Source: Maribellus maritimus (GTDB taxonomy: Bacteria; Bacteroidota; Bacteroidia; Bacteroidales; Prolixibacteraceae). Taken from it: 64,000 bases of DNA. The position numbers were made by a program, and so were the translations under genes. The notes under the pieces are model-generated. The model was not told the origin of the DNA and searched no databases. It saw nothing but the letters and a program-made list of their open reading frames with translations. Positions within the stretch are counted from its first letter, which is position 1, and every line of letters begins with the position of its first letter. Below are positions 58,362-64,000 of this stretch, piece by piece. The stretch lies in contig NZ_JAIKLE010000003.1 in the NCBI RefSeq assembly GCF_022267315.1, positions 186,001 to 250,000 on the forward strand, read 5' to 3'.

Positions 58362-58997
58362 TTAGCAACCTCCAGCTGCAACAGTACTTTTTTGTCTTCG
58401 CTGCACCTGAACAGGCTTTTTTGCCGTTGTTGAAACAGCAGCTCCATCTTTTGGGGCAGCTTTTTCCGCAAAATCATATCTTGGAATTCCTTTTTTGAAA
58501 GAGTTGTTGTCTTTTGCAGCCAACAAGTTTTCTTTATTTTCTGCATAATATTGATACCCGCCAGCCAAAATCTTTACGTTGTCGAAACCGACCTGCCGAA
58601 ACAACATCCACGGGCCGTTAGCCTGTAGTTGATTTTCGCCATACAAAACAACCGTGACGCCCATTTCATTTAATTTCTCCAGCCGTTCAACATTATCTTC
58701 CTGAGTCAAATCATTGGCTGATATGTTTTCTGCTCCGGGAATATGCCCTTGCCCAAAAATAAAATTGTCGCGGATATCAAAAAGAACTACATTTTGAGCT
58801 TCCTTTTTTATAAAACCATCCAGTTCCCATGGATAAAAATAAGCATTTTCATCACTAAGTTGTTGTATACTTTCATTCATATCCAAATGATAAGTTAGCA
58901 AAGGCTTTGTCATCGTAACAAAACCAGCAAGCAAAATCACAACAAAAATTACGACTGCAATTAATGTTCTCCAAGGATTTAATTCGTGTATATGCAT
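58362..58997 (-). CDS. Membrane-anchored rhodanese-like protein with C-terminal Gly-Gly-Cys tail (1)
   Basis: 211 residues. One N-terminal helix (about 12-30) places the rest in the periplasm. The rhodanese domain (about 50-155) has VVLFDIRDNFIFGQGHIPGA and ILAGGYQYY, but the catalytic loop reads VLYGENQLQANG, with Gly where the active-site Cys should be. The only cysteine in the whole protein is its last residue: the tail is VQVQRRQKSTVAAGGC. The neighbouring paralogue has the same tail. A sulfur-carrying role with the cysteine moved to a flexible arm is inferred. Last gene of the operon, 25 bp after its paralogue. Confidence 0.88.
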   Translation of the reverse strand: MHIHELNPWRTLIAVVIFVVILLAGFVTMTKPLLTYHLDMNESIQQLSDENAYFYPWELDGFIKKEAQNVVLFDIRDNFIFGQGHIPGAENISANDLTQEDNVERLEKLNEMGVTVVLYGENQLQANGPWMLFRQVGFDNVKILAGGYQYYAENKENLLAAKDNNSFKKGIPRYDFAEKAAPKDGAAVSTTAKKPVQVQRRQKSTVAAGGC

Positions 58998-59022
58998 GAT
59001 ATTCTTCTTATCAGATTTAACT

Positions 59023-59634
59023 TTAACAACCTCCTGAAGCTACTGATGTTTTCTCTTTACGGCGCACCTGAACCTCAACTTTTGAGTCGTTGAAATCGTC
59101 AACCTGTGCTCCTGTAAAATACATTTGAGCTCCTTTTCTAAAAGAATAAGTTTTGAATTCAGTTTCTTCTGCATCCGGGCTTGGCTCAACAGGATCGATA
59201 ATCGTTTCCATCCAGCAATTTAAACCACCCTTCATTACATAGGTACTGTTAAATCCAAGCCGTTTGGTAAGTACCCAGGTCTGATCGGCTTTAATATCGT
59301 CGTTGGAAACAAAAACCACTTTTGTTCCCGGTACTCCGAAATATGATAAGTTGTCATCGGCCATTAGTTTTTCAGTTGGTATATTTAATGAACGCGGCAG
59401 CGAATATTTCTCGAATTCCGCTTCACTTCTTACATCAACCAGTAACAAAGACGGATCGCCCTGAATGAGCCTTTTTGCGACTTCATCCGTTGAAATATAC
59501 CTTGTTGGTTGAACAATTTCTTTTAGAAGTGTTTCCGGTTCAATTTGTTTCAACTGTTTTGCAGGTTTCAGCATTAAAGTGCCAACTGCCAATACAATCA
59601 TGAGTATGGTTAGAAATATATAATTTCGATTCAT
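59023..59634 (-). CDS. Membrane-anchored rhodanese-like protein with C-terminal Gly-Gly-Cys tail (2)
   Basis: 203 residues. One N-terminal helix (about 5-22), then a periplasmic rhodanese domain (about 48-150) with LLLVDVRSEAEFEKYSLPRSLN and VMKGGLNCWMETI. The active-site loop is VFVSNDDIKADQ, with Ser replacing the catalytic Cys. Cysteines are only in GGLNCW and at the C-terminus, where the tail is VQVRRKEKTSVASGGC. The tail matches that of the next gene (VQVxRR...SVA[AS]GGC), although the domains have diverged. It starts 4 bp after the YeeE/YedE gene. Likely sulfur trafficking between transporter and reductase (inference). Confidence 0.88.
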   Translation of the reverse strand: MNRNYIFLTILMIVLAVGTLMLKPAKQLKQIEPETLLKEIVQPTRYISTDEVAKRLIQGDPSLLLVDVRSEAEFEKYSLPRSLNIPTEKLMADDNLSYFGVPGTKVVFVSNDDIKADQTWVLTKRLGFNSTYVMKGGLNCWMETIIDPVEPSPDAEETEFKTYSFRKGAQMYFTGAQVDDFNDSKVEVQVRRKEKTSVASGGC

Positions 59635-59638
59635 CAGA

Positions 59639-60241
59639 TTAGAATTTATATTCTTTCATATTTTTTCGAACACGCTTTTCAATTATCATCGTTCCCCAGA
59701 AAGCTGCAAGCGCAACCACTGTAAACGCCAGAGCAAACCAGGCTGCAGGAATTCCGGTCACATCAGTTAATGTAACATTCCCTAGATTTCCACTGTTGTA
59801 AAAACCTTCAATAAGCGGATATCCAAGAGAAAAGATAAAAATACCAATGTACAATCCGATGGTAAAAAGCAGTGCATCCAGTTTACCAATTGCGATGGCT
59901 GTAAAACTTGTTCCGGGGCAAAATCCACCCAGGATAAATCCCAGTCCCATTACTACTCCACCAAAAATCATTGGGGTTACATAGGTTGGAAGAATAAATA
60001 TTTTGGAAAGATCAAGCCAGCCAAAATAGTCGAAATACATCAGGCCAACCATTGCAACAATTAATGCGGTGAAAAACACGCGGAGCACAACAAAATTGTA
60101 TCCGTAAAATACACCGGTAATATTTCTGGAAGATGAAAAGCCGGAAGCTTCAAGAATAAAGCCAAAAGCTACTCCCAACAAAATGGCGATTACAAAATCC
60201 CAGCCTCCACCGATTATACCATTTGGAATTAAAGGTCCCAT
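59639..60241 (-). CDS. YeeE/YedE-family half transporter (B)
   Basis: 200 residues, about five or six helices. GFILEASGFSSSRNITGVFYGY and the cysteine motif GLGFILGGFCPGTSFTAIAIGKLDAL are family hallmarks. Full-length YeeE (about 350 residues) moves thiosulfate using conserved membrane cysteines; this protein has one such site. With the next upstream gene it likely forms a two-subunit transporter for thiosulfate or another sulfur species. Confidence 0.9.
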   Translation of the reverse strand: MGPLIPNGIIGGGWDFVIAILLGVAFGFILEASGFSSSRNITGVFYGYNFVVLRVFFTALIVAMVGLMYFDYFGWLDLSKIFILPTYVTPMIFGGVVMGLGFILGGFCPGTSFTAIAIGKLDALLFTIGLYIGIFIFSLGYPLIEGFYNSGNLGNVTLTDVTGIPAAWFALAFTVVALAAFWGTMIIEKRVRKNMKEYKF

Positions 60242-60266: not shown

Positions 60267-60797
60267 CTAAATCCATAATTTTCTAAAGAAATACGCCAGG
60301 ATGTAACCTGTTCCAAAAATGGAGAACATAACGATTACACCGCCCAAAGCAAAAGTTGCACTTCCACTCAACGCAGCACCACTGGTACATCCTCGACCAA
60401 ACTGACTGCCAATTCCAAATAGCGCTCCACCAATCAAAGCAAAAATCAAACGTTTTCTTGATGTGATTTTAGGGCCATGATCTGTACGAAATTTTTTCAC
60501 GCGGCCAAAAATTATTCCTGATAACAATCCTCCCAGAAAAACTCCCAGAGATTCAAAAACCAACCATGTATACATTGGCGAATGGTCGTCACTCACAAAT
60601 TGCCCCATATAAGCATTTTCCTTTGTACCCTCGGGGGAAATTGTATTTGCCGTTGTCACCACCGAACTTTTGATTGCCCCGCTGGCTCCAAGCCCCCTTC
60701 CTGTAATAAAAACAGTGGCTATAATAAGCAGTCCGAGTAATACTCCTCCCAGATAAGGATTTATATATTTGGGTTGATTATCCATTGTATTTTTCAT
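60267..60797 (-). CDS. YeeE/YedE-family half transporter (A)
   Basis: 176 residues, about four helices. The cysteine motif GIGSQFGRGCTSGAALSGSATFALGG is the YeeE/YedE counterpart of GGFCPGTS in its partner. The ATG at 60797 is preceded closely by AGGA; a second in-frame Met lies at 60785. Located 11 bp after the NrfD gene and 25 bp before the partner half transporter. Its large loop (about 30-75) faces the periplasm. Confidence 0.9.
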   Translation of the reverse strand: MKNTMDNQPKYINPYLGGVLLGLLIIATVFITGRGLGASGAIKSSVVTTANTISPEGTKENAYMGQFVSDDHSPMYTWLVFESLGVFLGGLLSGIIFGRVKKFRTDHGPKITSRKRLIFALIGGALFGIGSQFGRGCTSGAALSGSATFALGGVIVMFSIFGTGYILAYFFRKLWI

Positions 60798-60808
60798 AAT
60801 CCTGAATT

Positions 60809-61750
60809 TTAATATAAATATCTTGTTATCTGACCGGCTTCAACCATAATAAAGCGGAACATAAATCCACCAAACAAAATTAATGCTGAAGGTAGCCATT
60901 TGGGAACATGATAACCCCACAGTTCAAGTGTCTCCAAGGTTGCCGGAAAAATCAGTCCAAGCAAAACAACAAATACCCAGAAACTAACCGTAAATTGTCC
61001 GCCAAGAAACAGTCTGGCTGCCTCAATCGCTGTTTCCGAACCAGCAAGGAACCCCATGAATAAATGGACAATCAGAAATAATTCAACAAAAATAAAGATC
61101 AGATCTATCCGACTTAAAATCTTTCGTTCCTTTTCATCCTTGCTTATCCAGATTGTAGCGGCCAATCCCGTTGAAAAACCGGATACAAGAAAAAGTGGCC
61201 CGAGTATAGAAGTATTCCAAAGTGGCCGGGCATTAAATGCTGACAATAAAATGCCGGTGTAAACCCCAAGAATAATGGAATAAATCATCATTACCCACGC
61301 CAGGTAAACACGGTACTTGATTACAAATGCCTCAAATTTATCGAGAAACTTAAATTTCCAGTCCCACCAGGGAAAGATTTCCTTCATATAACTTGCTACC
61401 CACACAAATGATATTGGCGTGATTATCATTAATGTCCAGGCACCCCAGCCCATTGGTGATTCAAGGCGAATAGTTGTATACAATTGCCAGAAATACAATT
61501 TATGTTTTAAGTCCCAGAATAGTGCTCCAAGACCAAGAACAAGTGCAATGGGAGCAATAATCGGTGCCCATTTTACAGTAGCCTGCATCTTTTTTTCTTT
61601 TCCCCGAACAACAAAATATCCGGCAAAAAACAATACTCCGGCAGCCAAGCCTCCCAAAAACAAATAGAGAGGAATCTGCCAGTGCCAGATATTCAGGTAG
61701 GGATCAATGTTGGGTATATTTCGTCCGCTTACAAAAAGTTCTTCTTTCAT
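60809..61750 (-). CDS. NrfD/PsrC-type quinone-binding membrane subunit
   Basis: 313 residues with eight helices, the size of PsrC. IWHWQIPLYLFLGGLAAGVLFFAGY is the standard first helix with the quinol-site region, and SAFNARPLWNTSILGPLFLVSGFSTG is the conserved loop. Passes electrons from menaquinol to the PsrB-like protein encoded 18 bp upstream. Confidence 0.95.
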   Translation of the reverse strand: MKEELFVSGRNIPNIDPYLNIWHWQIPLYLFLGGLAAGVLFFAGYFVVRGKEKKMQATVKWAPIIAPIALVLGLGALFWDLKHKLYFWQLYTTIRLESPMGWGAWTLMIITPISFVWVASYMKEIFPWWDWKFKFLDKFEAFVIKYRVYLAWVMMIYSIILGVYTGILLSAFNARPLWNTSILGPLFLVSGFSTGLAATIWISKDEKERKILSRIDLIFIFVELFLIVHLFMGFLAGSETAIEAARLFLGGQFTVSFWVFVVLLGLIFPATLETLELWGYHVPKWLPSALILFGGFMFRFIMVEAGQITRYLY

Positions 61751-61768: not shown

Positions 61769-62302
61769 TTATGTAAGAAAATACAATTGAGGTTTTGTTC
61801 CGGCTTCAGGAGCTAAAACTTTCCATTTCCGGTCTTTTATTGCCAGAGAAACATCACTGTTCGGGTCATCCAAATCTCCAAAGTGAAGACACTTGGTTGG
61901 ACAAACCTCAACACAAGCCGGGTTTTGGCCTTTTTTGACACGGTGGATACAAAAAGTACATTTATCAACATACCCTTCCGGATGCGAATACCTTGCATCG
62001 TAAGGACAGGATTGGATACAGGCTCCACAACCAATACACTTGTTGTGTTCCACCAAAACAATACCACCATCCTCAATATGACTGGCTCCGGTTGGGCAGC
62101 ATCTTACGCATGGAGAATTATCGCAGTGATTACAACGCTCTGAGCGAAATTCCAAATCAAGACTTGGATAGGTTCCGTCAACGCGTTCCACAATCCAGTC
62201 GCGGCAATAGCCGTGCGGAACATTATTTTCTGTTTGGCAGGCTACCACACAGTCGCCACATCCGACACACTTTTTGGTGTCAATTGCCATTGCGTATCTC
62301 AT
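61769..62302 (-). CDS. PsrB-type 4Fe-4S electron-transfer subunit
   Basis: 177 residues, with all four cluster motifs complete: CVGCGDCVVAC, CNHCDNSPCVRCCP, CIGCGACIQSCP and CTFCIHRVKKGQNPACVEVCP. No signal peptide; PsrB-type proteins are exported together with the Tat-dependent catalytic subunit. Overlaps the catalytic-subunit gene as ATGA. Its complete motifs contrast with the degenerate set in the Fe-S protein at 12950. Confidence 0.95.
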   Translation of the reverse strand: MRYAMAIDTKKCVGCGDCVVACQTENNVPHGYCRDWIVERVDGTYPSLDLEFRSERCNHCDNSPCVRCCPTGASHIEDGGIVLVEHNKCIGCGACIQSCPYDARYSHPEGYVDKCTFCIHRVKKGQNPACVEVCPTKCLHFGDLDDPNSDVSLAIKDRKWKVLAPEAGTKPQLYFLT

Positions 62303-64000
62303 GCTTTAACCTCCTTTCCTTCCAAAGCTGGATCTTCAGTTAAAAATGTAATAAAGTTTCCTCTCATTCCGGTTCCTCCCATAATCGGGTCAACGGCAAC
62401 ATTGGTAATCATTTCTGTATCGCTCGCTCCACGGCCAAAAGCGCGTGAAAGTTTTTTATTGTTATGACCAAATCCGTGTACCATATAAACAGAATCCCAG
62501 CGAATTCTCTCGGTTACCCTGACTTTCACGGGGAAAGAAGTTATTGCGCCATCCTGGTTTTTCAGCCAAACTTCCTGATCTCGTTTTAATCCCCACAAAT
62601 CAGCCACTTTGGGATTTACCCAAACACTGTTTTCACTCATCAAATCTGATAAATTTGGATTGTTTGAAGTACGGCTAAACGTATGCATTGGAGCACGTCC
62701 GTAAATAAGTCGGTAAAAATTTGCCGGTGGTTCCGGGTGTTTTGTATATTTCGGAATCGGATCAAATCCATGGTCGGCGAAATCGACAGAATATAATTCT
62801 ATCTTTCCTGTACTTGTGTTAAACTCAAAATCTTCTCCATCACCAAGATATAGAGGACCACTTTTTCTCGGATATTTTTTTACTCCGATTTTTTTCATTT
62901 CCTCCAGCGAAGTCCCCAACTGTTTTAACTGCCAATCAATAACTTCAGAATAGTCTTCAAAATTAAAATAATCATGAAGTCCTAATCTTTCACCAATTTG
63001 TTTTGCGATCCACCAGCCGGGTTTTGTATTGTATTTCGGCTCAATTGCCGGCATTCGTAAAGCGATATTGGGCTCACGATTCGCAGCAGAGCGGATTACA
63101 TCGTATCTTTCCAAATAAGTTGCTTCCGGCAGAACAACATCGGCGTAACCAGTAATATCCATTGGCATAGTATCCATCACCGCAATAAATTCAACGGCAT
63201 CAGCAGCCTCCTTAAATAATCGTTTATCCGGCATTGAAAGCGGAAGATTTGTTCCGGCTACCAGCCAGGCTTTTACCTGGTGTTTGTAATTGTATTTTGG
63301 AACCGAAGCTTTTAATAATTCGGTAGTAATTCCCATTGTTGCGAGCGGATATCTTCCTGCATTCCAATCTTTCCATGTCCATTCTGGTTCATGAAAATGC
63401 GGATGCGGATAAGCAGGAACAGAAACTCCTTCGGGGAAATAAAGCCCGCCTCGTTTTCCCCAGGCGCCAAGCAGAGCTGTTAGAATCGCCATTGCTCTTC
63501 CCCTTTGGGTATCGTCACCGTACCAAACCACGTGGCGTCCGGGATGAATAACCACCGCAGGAGCAGCTCCGGCCATCGCCCTTGCAGTTTTCCTAATTTG
63601 TTCCGGTTCAATGGTAGTAATTCCATACGCCCATTCCGGAGTCATATTTTTTACGTGATCCTTCAGGTATTCCAGCCCAAAAGTGTATTTTTCAACATAA
63701 TCTTTATCGTACAGTCCTTCATAGATCAATACATGAATCCACGCCATAAGAAGCGCAATATCTGTTGCCGGTTTTATGGGTAGCCAGAAACTGGAATGAG
63801 CCGCCGCCGTTGAATATCGTGGGTCAACAGTAATAATTGTCGCCCCTTTATCGATAGCGTCAGACATTTCCTGCACCTGTGAATTGTGCATGTTTTCACC
63901 AATATGTGAACCGATTAAAACCAAACAATTGGTGTCGCGAATATCGGTACTTTCCGGCGAGCCAACATAAGCTCCGAATGTGGAAAAATAAGCAGATGAA
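62299..64000 (-). CDS. Molybdopterin oxidoreductase catalytic subunit (PsrA/PhsA-like), N-terminus cut off
   Basis: The frame stays open to the right edge, so about 567 C-terminal residues are seen; the N-terminal Fe-S and Tat signal lie outside. Visible parts of the DMSO-reductase fold: DTNCLVLIGSHIGENMHNSQ, ATIITVDPRYSTAAAHSSFWLPIKPATDIALLMAW, VVLPEATYLERYD, IYGRAPMHTFSRTSNNPNL and ITNVAVDPIMGGTGMRGNFI near the C-terminus. With PsrB/PsrC-type partners and sulfur transport genes it is most likely a polysulfide or thiosulfate reductase, but tetrathionate or arsenic substrates cannot be excluded. Confidence 0.93.
   Translation of the reverse strand, partial: SSAYFSTFGAYVGSPESTDIRDTNCLVLIGSHIGENMHNSQVQEMSDAIDKGATIITVDPRYSTAAAHSSFWLPIKPATDIALLMAWIHVLIYEGLYDKDYVEKYTFGLEYLKDHVKNMTPEWAYGITTIEPEQIRKTARAMAGAAPAVVIHPGRHVVWYGDDTQRGRAMAILTALLGAWGKRGGLYFPEGVSVPAYPHPHFHEPEWTWKDWNAGRYPLATMGITTELLKASVPKYNYKHQVKAWLVAGTNLPLSMPDKRLFKEAADAVEFIAVMDTMPMDITGYADVVLPEATYLERYDVIRSAANREPNIALRMPAIEPKYNTKPGWWIAKQIGERLGLHDYFNFEDYSEVIDWQLKQLGTSLEEMKKIGVKKYPRKSGPLYLGDGEDFEFNTSTGKIELYSVDFADHGFDPIPKYTKHPEPPANFYRLIYGRAPMHTFSRTSNNPNLSDLMSENSVWVNPKVADLWGLKRDQEVWLKNQDGAITSFPVKVRVTERIRWDSVYMVHGFGHNNKKLSRAFGRGASDTEMITNVAVDPIMGGTGMRGNFITFLTEDPALEGKEVKA

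Follow-up and report, generated by a model that had tools for sequence, protein, structure and literature searches.

Rhodanese-fold proteins with a C-terminal Gly-Gly-Cys end beside reductase and YedE genes in Maribellus maritimus, probable sulfane-sulfur carriers with relatives across Bacteroidota

The DNA considered here, referred to as the window, is a stretch of 64,000 nucleotides from Maribellus maritimus (contig NZ_JAIKLE010000003.1, positions 186,001 to 250,000). At its right end lies an operon-like run on the minus strand, psrA-psrB-psrC-yedE1-yedE2-rhB-rhA, in which reductase genes and two half-channel genes are followed by genes for two rhodanese-fold proteins, RhB and RhA. Both proteins lack a cysteine at the catalytic-loop position and both end in Gly-Gly-Cys (GGC). 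The features of the run are listed below in window coordinates, each with the evidence for it.

58362..58997, minus strand: RhA, rhodanese-fold protein with an N-terminal helix, 211 amino acids (aa), single cysteine Cys211 (open reading frame (ORF) list, Pfam, structure model)
58365..58373, minus strand: Gly-Gly-Cys end of RhA, residues 209-211 (translation, alignments)
58365..58496, minus strand: C-terminal arm of RhA, residues 168-211, predicted local distance difference test (pLDDT) score <50, probably flexible (structure model)
58542..58802, minus strand: rhodanese domain of RhA, residues 66-152 (Pfam)
58638..58640, minus strand: codon of RhA Gly120, at the catalytic-cysteine position (alignment)
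59023..59634, minus strand: RhB, rhodanese-fold protein with an N-terminal helix, 203 aa, Cys140 and Cys203 (ORF list, Pfam, structure model)
59026..59034, minus strand: Gly-Gly-Cys end of RhB, residues 201-203 (translation, alignments)
59026..59112, minus strand: C-terminal arm of RhB, residues 175-203, pLDDT <50 (structure model)
59206..59490, minus strand: rhodanese domain of RhB, residues 49-143 (Pfam)
59305..59307, minus strand: codon of RhB Ser110, at the catalytic-cysteine position (alignment, phmmer)
59639..60241, minus strand: YedE2 half-channel (PF04143), invariant Cys108 corresponding to TsuA Cys91 in a weak alignment (Pfam, profile alignment)
60267..60797, minus strand: YedE1 half-channel (PF04143), invariant Cys137 corresponding to TsuA Cys293 (Pfam, profile alignment)
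60809..61750, minus strand: PsrC, NrfD-type subunit (Pfam)
61769..62302, minus strand: PsrB, 4Fe-4S subunit (Pfam)
62299..64000, minus strand: PsrA, molybdopterin subunit with a twin-Arg N-terminus, extending past the window end (sequence search)

A first-pass annotation of the window had described RhA and RhB as anchored rhodaneses without a catalytic-loop cysteine but with a common GGC tail, and this description is confirmed. Both ORFs exceed the 22.2-bit cut-off of the rhodanese family PF00581 (56.5 bits for RhA and 50.6 bits for RhB), which is the sole Pfam match of either protein at E <=0.01, and their best Foldseek matches are rhodanese-fold proteins (E 3.6e-7 for RhA; E 6.3e-4 for RhB, its only match below 0.001). 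The N-terminal helix is modelled at residues 8-28 of RhA and 3-20 of RhB. In the MAFFT column of the catalytic-loop cysteine, RhA has Gly120 and RhB has Ser110, the latter also paired by phmmer with the cysteine of PDB 3d1p, and neither protein thus has the loop cysteine expected of a catalytic rhodanese (thiosulfate sulfurtransferase). The ends read TVAAGGC in RhA and SVASGGC in RhB; Cys211 is the only cysteine of RhA, while RhB has Cys140 besides Cys203. Each GGC closes a C-terminal stretch with pLDDT below 50 (44 residues in RhA, 29 in RhB), and the linker before it is rich in Lys and Arg, at about 6 per 20 residues. Invariant Asp, Arg and Gly positions are kept in both rhodanese domains, and the last two residues of each tail are conserved beyond chance: G202 and C203 are among the 9 invariant columns of 40 RhB sequences, and G210 and C211 among the 6 (one being the start Met) of 39 RhA sequences.

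Relatives were gathered in three ways. With the RhA protein as query, of 295 genomes from the order 124 gave a match at E <=0.001, ordinary rhodaneses included, and the context was fetched for 60 of these 124; 16 named contigs at 42-67% identity (e.g., from Maribellus, Draconibacterium, Mangrovibacterium, Prolixibacteraceae, Marinilabiliales, and Lentimicrobiaceae) and the best 29 new loci from a profile search of 395 phylum genomes were added. The gene order of the window is repeated in most of the order-level and named-contig loci. The aligned set comprises 89 RhB, 60 RhA, and 17 YedE2-rhodanese fusions, i.e., 166 copies from 106 loci, window included. RhA and RhB are best-hit labels here, several loci are short or lie on contigs of metagenome-assembled genomes, loop residues were read from one MAFFT column, and a 169-aa copy from locus L114 that ends GGCGD is counted as RhB, though it is part of a second arrangement with a 404-aa YedE, described below. 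With a GC tail defined as one having at most 2 residues after the cysteine, the tail is found in 89 of 89 RhB, 58 of 60 RhA, and 15 of 17 fusions, whereas the loop cysteine is kept in only 1, 3, and none of them, respectively. The loop position otherwise varies: most copies have Ser, Gly or Ala there, others His, Tyr or Thr. In 51 of the 89 RhB and 27 of the 58 tailed RhA, the tail cysteine is the only one in the protein.

The same picture extends over the phylum. All of the first 29 phylum loci carry the GC tail, and 28 adjoin a YedE pair. A further 34 profile matches, down to 59 bits and including 3 second loci of genomes already sampled, all adjoin YedE1 and YedE2; 32 of these proteins end in GC with at most one extra residue (GGC, EGC, DGC or MGC), one ends in FQC, and one ORF is truncated. 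A loop-type Cys motif was matched in only one of the 34, a 311-aa ORF with an extended start. Taken together, 61 of the 63 phylum profile-match loci (29 of them also in the aligned set) have the tail and 62 have the YedE pair. As read from these sequences, the GC tail on rhodaneses without a loop cysteine is a phylum-wide pattern. Variant ends (GGCS, GGCG, GGCE, GCGG, EGC, RMGC, FQC) keep the cysteine but not its context. One YedE-linked rhodanese (L259:2465-3163) ends in LRFQC, where the glycines are lost and the terminal cysteine is kept, suggesting that the thiol matters more than the glycines. Among plasmid records, the one source covered beyond Bacteroidota, plasmid 1 of Gemmatirosa kalamazoonensis (L146) encodes a rhodanese ORF ending in RLRRRGC beside YedE-like ORFs; further searches of plasmid records outside the phylum gave no additional armed rhodanese.

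The tail is also largely restricted to one class of proteins and one genetic context. The 77 loci examined for this contain 3659 closed ORFs with a length of 60 aa or more. Apart from the proteins first listed as rhodanese-like, just 7 of them have GGC in their last five residues; the Cys motifs of 6 are like those of two-domain sulfurtransferases, and the seventh, of 71 aa, appears to be spurious. GGC ends are thus almost confined to sulfurtransferase-like proteins in the sampled loci. A search that started from the YedE family yielded 30 loci, 18 with a split YedE pair, many of them in genomes already used. The neighbour's end could be read at 16 of these 18, and all 16 have a cysteine in the last two residues (14 GGC, 2 GGLC). 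At 7 single-chain YeeE loci, no rhodanese-like ORF was found within the fetched 1.5 kb, and at 5 loci with a 404-aa YedE the next rhodanese keeps a loop-type cysteine and ends in GCGG (GGCGG in 4 of the 5). Finally, a rhodanese family search in 31 genomes gave 29 new loci, which were joined by 4 from the window's own genome; among the closed rhodanese ORFs of this set, the tail is present in 10 of 11 near a YedE gene and in 1 of 29 elsewhere. That single tailed protein away from YedE (L184) is encoded on a contig that also has a gene for an octaheme cytochrome.

Within a genome, the tails of RhA and RhB resemble each other far more than their domains do. Tail and codon tests were made on 32 non-redundant loci of the 51 with both proteins, drawn from the order-level and named-contig sets only. 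Over the 13 positions that precede GGC, RhA and RhB from one genome show 56.0% identity, a level that 0 of 10,000 permutations reach; permuted partners give 24.1% (standard deviation 2.1). For the rhodanese domains the corresponding identities are 25.6% and 24.3%. At 25 of 32 loci no other tail matches better than that of the partner from the same genome, which is the best domain match at only 1 of 32, and the result holds under stricter removal of redundancy (54.2% against 23.8% with 25 loci; 49.7% against 21.9% with 11). The first-pass annotation had reasoned that a tail retained by diverged domains points to selection, and the comparison sustains that reasoning. At 328 identical tail residues with a choice of codon, the same codon is used in 46% of cases, which equals the 46% that codon usage predicts; at 1147 domain residues the figure is similar, 43%. 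Since there is no codon sharing beyond expectation, the likeness appears to be held at the protein level rather than by recent DNA copying, which suggests selection by a common partner. Composition was also considered as a cause: shuffled partner tails give an identity of 0.17, so a merely Lys-rich tail does not account for the matching. An old conversion whose synonymous sites have since become saturated may nonetheless have contributed. A third tailed relative is a two-domain sulfurtransferase of about 360-380 aa, mostly with a lipobox-like start and with loop-type Cys motifs, encoded at L083, L084, L093, L095, L099, L103, L105, L110, L114, L075, and L081. Tails of this type match those of the RhB or fusion of their own genome at 38.5% against 18.7% (13 loci, 0 of 20,000 permutations). 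The simplest reading would be one receptor for all these tails, with a putative shared need to dock.

The YedE and psr context, noted for the window in the first-pass annotation, recurs in most relatives. The whole psrA gene lies at L009:8300-10555 and its product begins with a twin-Arg N-terminus; PsrA residues 4-737 match chain A of 2vpw, the best solved match, at E 3.8e-184, and the score against the PhsA equivalog, 435.6 bits, is below that family's cut-off of 694. The window locus therefore has the molybdopterin, 4Fe-4S, and NrfD subunits that define PsrABC. The two YedE halves score 54.2 and 67.8 bits against a PF04143 cut-off of 27, and YedE1 Cys137 and YedE2 Cys108 are invariant in 27 and 26 sequences, respectively. 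Profiles were needed to place both halves on TsuA: the single YedE2 sequence had no match among PDB sequences and YedE1 only weak ones, including TsuA at E 0.8, while the profile search aligned YedE1 Cys137 with TsuA Cys293 at E 4.3e-9. The column of the third TsuA cysteine, Cys22, holds Ser in YedE2, in a weak alignment. psrC is absent from 24 of 87 neighbourhoods, some of them truncated where a contig stops, and a cytochrome of the octaheme tetrathionate-reductase family stands in its place in many of the psrC-less loci. This cytochrome occurs in 16 neighbourhoods (TIGR04315, 567.7 bits in L216) and together with psrC only in L093, and 12 neighbourhoods have a cytochrome b that is a relative of the b subunit of thiosulfate reductase. 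Sulfur reductases of two kinds thus accompany the arms, and YedE does so almost without exception. Some lineages have the rhodanese naturally fused to YedE2, in the order YedE2, hydrophobic segment, rhodanese, GGC, which argues for YedE as a partner.

RhA and RhB are read here as sulfane-sulfur carriers, each with its terminal cysteine on a flexible, SoxY-like arm that serves the reductase and also the YedE channel in loci that have one; we regard this as probable, though well short of settled, on the strength of sequence, structure model, and analogy. The rhodanese domain would have lost its own catalytic cysteine, and the working thiol would sit at the tip of the Lys/Arg-rich arm, most likely in the periplasm. 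There, the terminal cysteine may be loaded with sulfane sulfur, forming a persulfide or polysulfane, and the arm, which is predicted to be flexible, would offer this sulfur at one docking site common to every arm in the cell. Candidates for the site are the associated reductase (PsrA in the window) and, at almost every locus, the YedE1/YedE2 mouth, from which a channel route would lead over YedE1 Cys137 and then YedE2 Cys108. The tailed pair probably hands sulfur to both the sulfur-reducing enzyme and the membrane channel, although sulfur may instead be taken from the YedE mouth, and the Lys/Arg-rich linker may help to direct anionic polysulfide or the docking site.

While the first-pass annotation recognised no counterpart for such a mechanism, SoxY offers a precedent. 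According to passages of PMC6067878, binding of the sulfur substrate by the cysteine of the C-terminal GGCGG of SoxY is well established, and this end is called a peptide swinging arm in the passages drawn on (PMC6067878, PMC11237559, and PMC11582611). Transfer from the SoxY cysteine to the channel cysteines of YeeE-type SoxT is called conceivable in a passage of PMC11582611, which also matches the cysteines of half-size YedE proteins to TsuA Cys91 and Cys293, as found here. Like SoxY, RhA and RhB have a glycine-flanked cysteine at the C-terminus, conserved here as GGC; mobility of the arm that bears it is a prediction from low pLDDT. They differ in the body, which is a rhodanese without a match to the SoxY domain (PF13501), and in having a Lys/Arg-rich arm, an N-terminal helix, and reductase neighbours; PF13501 had no match in the window's genome, nor in any control genome. 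The rhodanese fold is shared with single-domain rhodaneses and with Sud of Wolinella, a periplasmic sulfur donor to polysulfide reductase. These proteins transfer sulfur on the loop cysteine, whereas in RhA and RhB the loop position is mostly Ser, Gly or Ala and the cysteine stands at the C-terminus. PDB 1qxn, named sulfide dehydrogenase, which we take to be Sud, matches RhB weakly (E 0.015).

Other relays resemble parts of the system. YedE1 and YedE2 are the two halves of a channel of the kind found in the YeeE/TsuA with YeeD/TsuB and PmpA/PmpB systems, with invariant cysteines that match those of TsuA, but the usual neighbour here is an arm-bearing rhodanese, probably periplasmic. DsrC carries a cysteine on a C-terminal arm. 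DsrC/TusE and LbpA resemble RhA and RhB in having a reactive cysteine near the C-terminus in sulfur relays, as a passage of PMC6067878 describes for LbpA, and belong to different families; a separate DsrC-family gene is found near some armed-rhodanese loci. The Geobacter ext operon, as given in PMC5877670 passages, combines the rhodanese ExtH and the porin ExtI with Rieske, cytochrome b, and multihaem genes (ExtM/O/P). It is thus similar in bringing rhodanese, porin, and Rieske/cytochrome b genes together, and the window's divergent neighbour, a Rieske and cytochrome b/multihaem fusion just to the right of the window (L009:11069-14158, plus strand), matches ExtM and ExtP. In contrast, a GC tail is not mentioned for it, the term GGC being absent from the available PMC5877670 text. 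ORFs with this likeness recur in 17 and 18 of the 87 neighbourhoods.

Several results count against RhA and RhB as carriers of this kind. Sulfane-sulfur loading of the tail cysteine is putative and the docking partner a candidate only. The structure models are modest, with a mean pLDDT of 65 for RhB and 72 for RhA, and YedE2 Cys108 aligns with TsuA Cys91 at only E 0.087. The window's genome has no TusA-family match, while 11 of 14 control genomes do, so the cytosolic acceptor of TsuA-type uptake is either missing or different. The domains of RhA and RhB are themselves slightly more alike within genomes than expected (29 of 10,000 permutations reach the observed value), and there is little tail matching in several genomes (0.08 in L066, 0.15 in L078); for the two-domain sulfurtransferases it fails in L114 (0.00) and L051 (0.08). 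Homologues in the same context that lack the tail or keep an ordinary loop cysteine had been named in the first-pass annotation as contrary evidence, and some exist. Those without a tail are few, amounting to 2 of 60 RhA (in L059 and L112), 0 of 89 RhB, and 2 of 17 fusions (one ending GGLCS, the other DGGVKR). A frameshift was considered for L059 and L112, but no GGC-coding stretch was seen just downstream on the coding strand, so both stay exceptions. Loss of the loop cysteine is nearly general, yet 4 of the 166 aligned copies keep that cysteine as well as the tail, and untailed two-domain or loop-Cys sulfurtransferases occur in the same stretches at L186, L239, and L255. A further exception is genome G588 (99% complete; L121, L260:7-5148), which has psrA-psrB-psrC-rhB-rhA, with the tail PVKKVKVEVEEGGC on both rhodaneses, and no YedE gene found: a PF04143 search of it gave no match, while the same search matched 6 of 14 control genomes. 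YedE is thus not indispensable and not the docking site there, and arms can occur where only the reductase accompanies them. Since neither partner is universal (psrC is lacking from the neighbourhoods counted above and YedE from G588), the first-pass proposal of transfer between the reductase and the YedE pair does not give a full account at every locus. G588 is a natural experiment on the partner requirement of the arms.

Among other explanations, a split rhodanese, in which the terminal cysteine docks in the vacated loop of its own or the partner domain and restores a sulfurtransferase with a detachable thiol, is unlikely. It would explain why the domain and its invariant Asp, Arg, and Gly positions persist although the cysteine is gone, and why RhA and RhB are often paired with matching tails; in the YedE-less G588, the partner domain would still be available for docking. 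However, the residue vacating the loop ranges from Ser, Gly, and Ala to His, Tyr, and Thr, single-rhodanese loci and fusions occur, tailed two-domain relatives retain a loop-type cysteine, and the arm is modelled as disordered. That the GGC end is instead a signal for processing, anchoring or assembly, to be cleaved, lipidated or disulfide-linked to a scaffold, is very unlikely. Sorting signals do have such a form, a brief conserved terminus behind a linker that varies, with a character particular to each genome and common to several of its proteins, but the motif stands at the very end with no hydrophobic segment after it, its variants preserve the cysteine rather than the context, and it is almost confined to sulfur loci. 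No C-terminal processing system (protease, sortase or lipid-transfer family) was recognised by eye among the families recurring in at least 8 of the 87 neighbourhoods, not all of which are annotated.

It is highly improbable that the cargo of the arm is selenium or a thiophilic metal, or that the arm is a disulfide redox switch. YedE relatives include selenium-linked families by NCBIfam matches, an SQR of a family named as a selenoprotein subtype lies near some loci, and the divergent gene next to the window is similar to those for cytochromes in the selenite/tellurite ext operon, while the accompanying reductases match polysulfide/thiosulfate and tetrathionate-reductase families, and one cysteine per arm, often the protein's only one, is poorly suited to chelation or an internal disulfide. 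Hardly credible is the view that the tails have no function and are alike through RhA/RhB paralogy or DNA exchange. Both rhodaneses lie in one operon, and the slight within-genome likeness of their domains fits this view; yet the tails exceed the permuted identity so much more than the domains do, identical residues show no excess of shared codons, and shuffling a partner's tail lowers identity to 0.17, and on these domain, codon, and shuffle tests paralogy and recent gene conversion were rejected as the cause.

The carrier reading has a wider form that we put forward tentatively and think rather doubtful as a whole, namely a periplasmic thiol relay with an arm code. Relocated-thiol rhodaneses, tailed loop-Cys two-domain sulfurtransferases, and YedE2 fusions would bear genome-specific tails read by one receptor (reductase, YedE or both), porins with a GGCG loop may feed them, and sulfane sulfur would pass from the outer membrane to the reductase without free polysulfide.

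No description of GC-tailed rhodaneses was found in full-text searches of a library of open-licence papers. These proteins bear on the onward transfer of sulfane sulfur by periplasmic carriers, from which sulfur is said in a passage of PMC11582611 to reach the cytoplasm 'by unknown means'. In relatives throughout the phylum, the cysteine in use appears to be a tethered one on a rhodanese that has lost its catalytic residue, a SoxY-like arm on an unrelated body, and the tail cysteine offers a one-residue handle for a clean test. For annotation, such 'rhodaneses' are probably not loop-Cys enzymes, and a GC-tailed rhodanese beside psr or YedE genes is suggested as a sequence marker for users of sulfur intermediates.

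Some further genes were seen around these loci. The window's genome (G000) has a separate single-chain YeeE at G000:C135:292958-293863. SQR, DUF1641, DsrC/TusE-family, and DsrE2-like genes lie beside psr-yedE-rhodanese genes in L051, L052, L053, L055, L060, and L107, and in part in L087, and TatC is also present in 5 of these 7 loci; the families were named from the L055 copies, the SQR being the NCBIfam type III selenoprotein-subtype family. The second arrangement mentioned above is found in L206 (8524-9015 and 9926-10423), L207, L208, L209, and L210. It consists of pairs of short rhodaneses with lipoprotein-like N-termini that end in GGCGG (one in SGCGG), i.e., the SoxY motif on a rhodanese, together with a YedE of 404 aa (seen in L206 and L208, and by YedE match elsewhere). 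Cysteine is unusual in porins. Five porin matches in the 87 neighbourhoods (L055:2-1060, L207:7220-8260, L210:6978-8093, L114:16757-17776, and L221:4597-5649) nevertheless have Cys sites in common: QGC near the N-terminus, directly behind what is probably the signal peptide, a glycine-rich loop with GGCG, and a site resembling N-T-P-C; PF07396 was matched in the three of the five that were scanned and in a sixth porin (L044).

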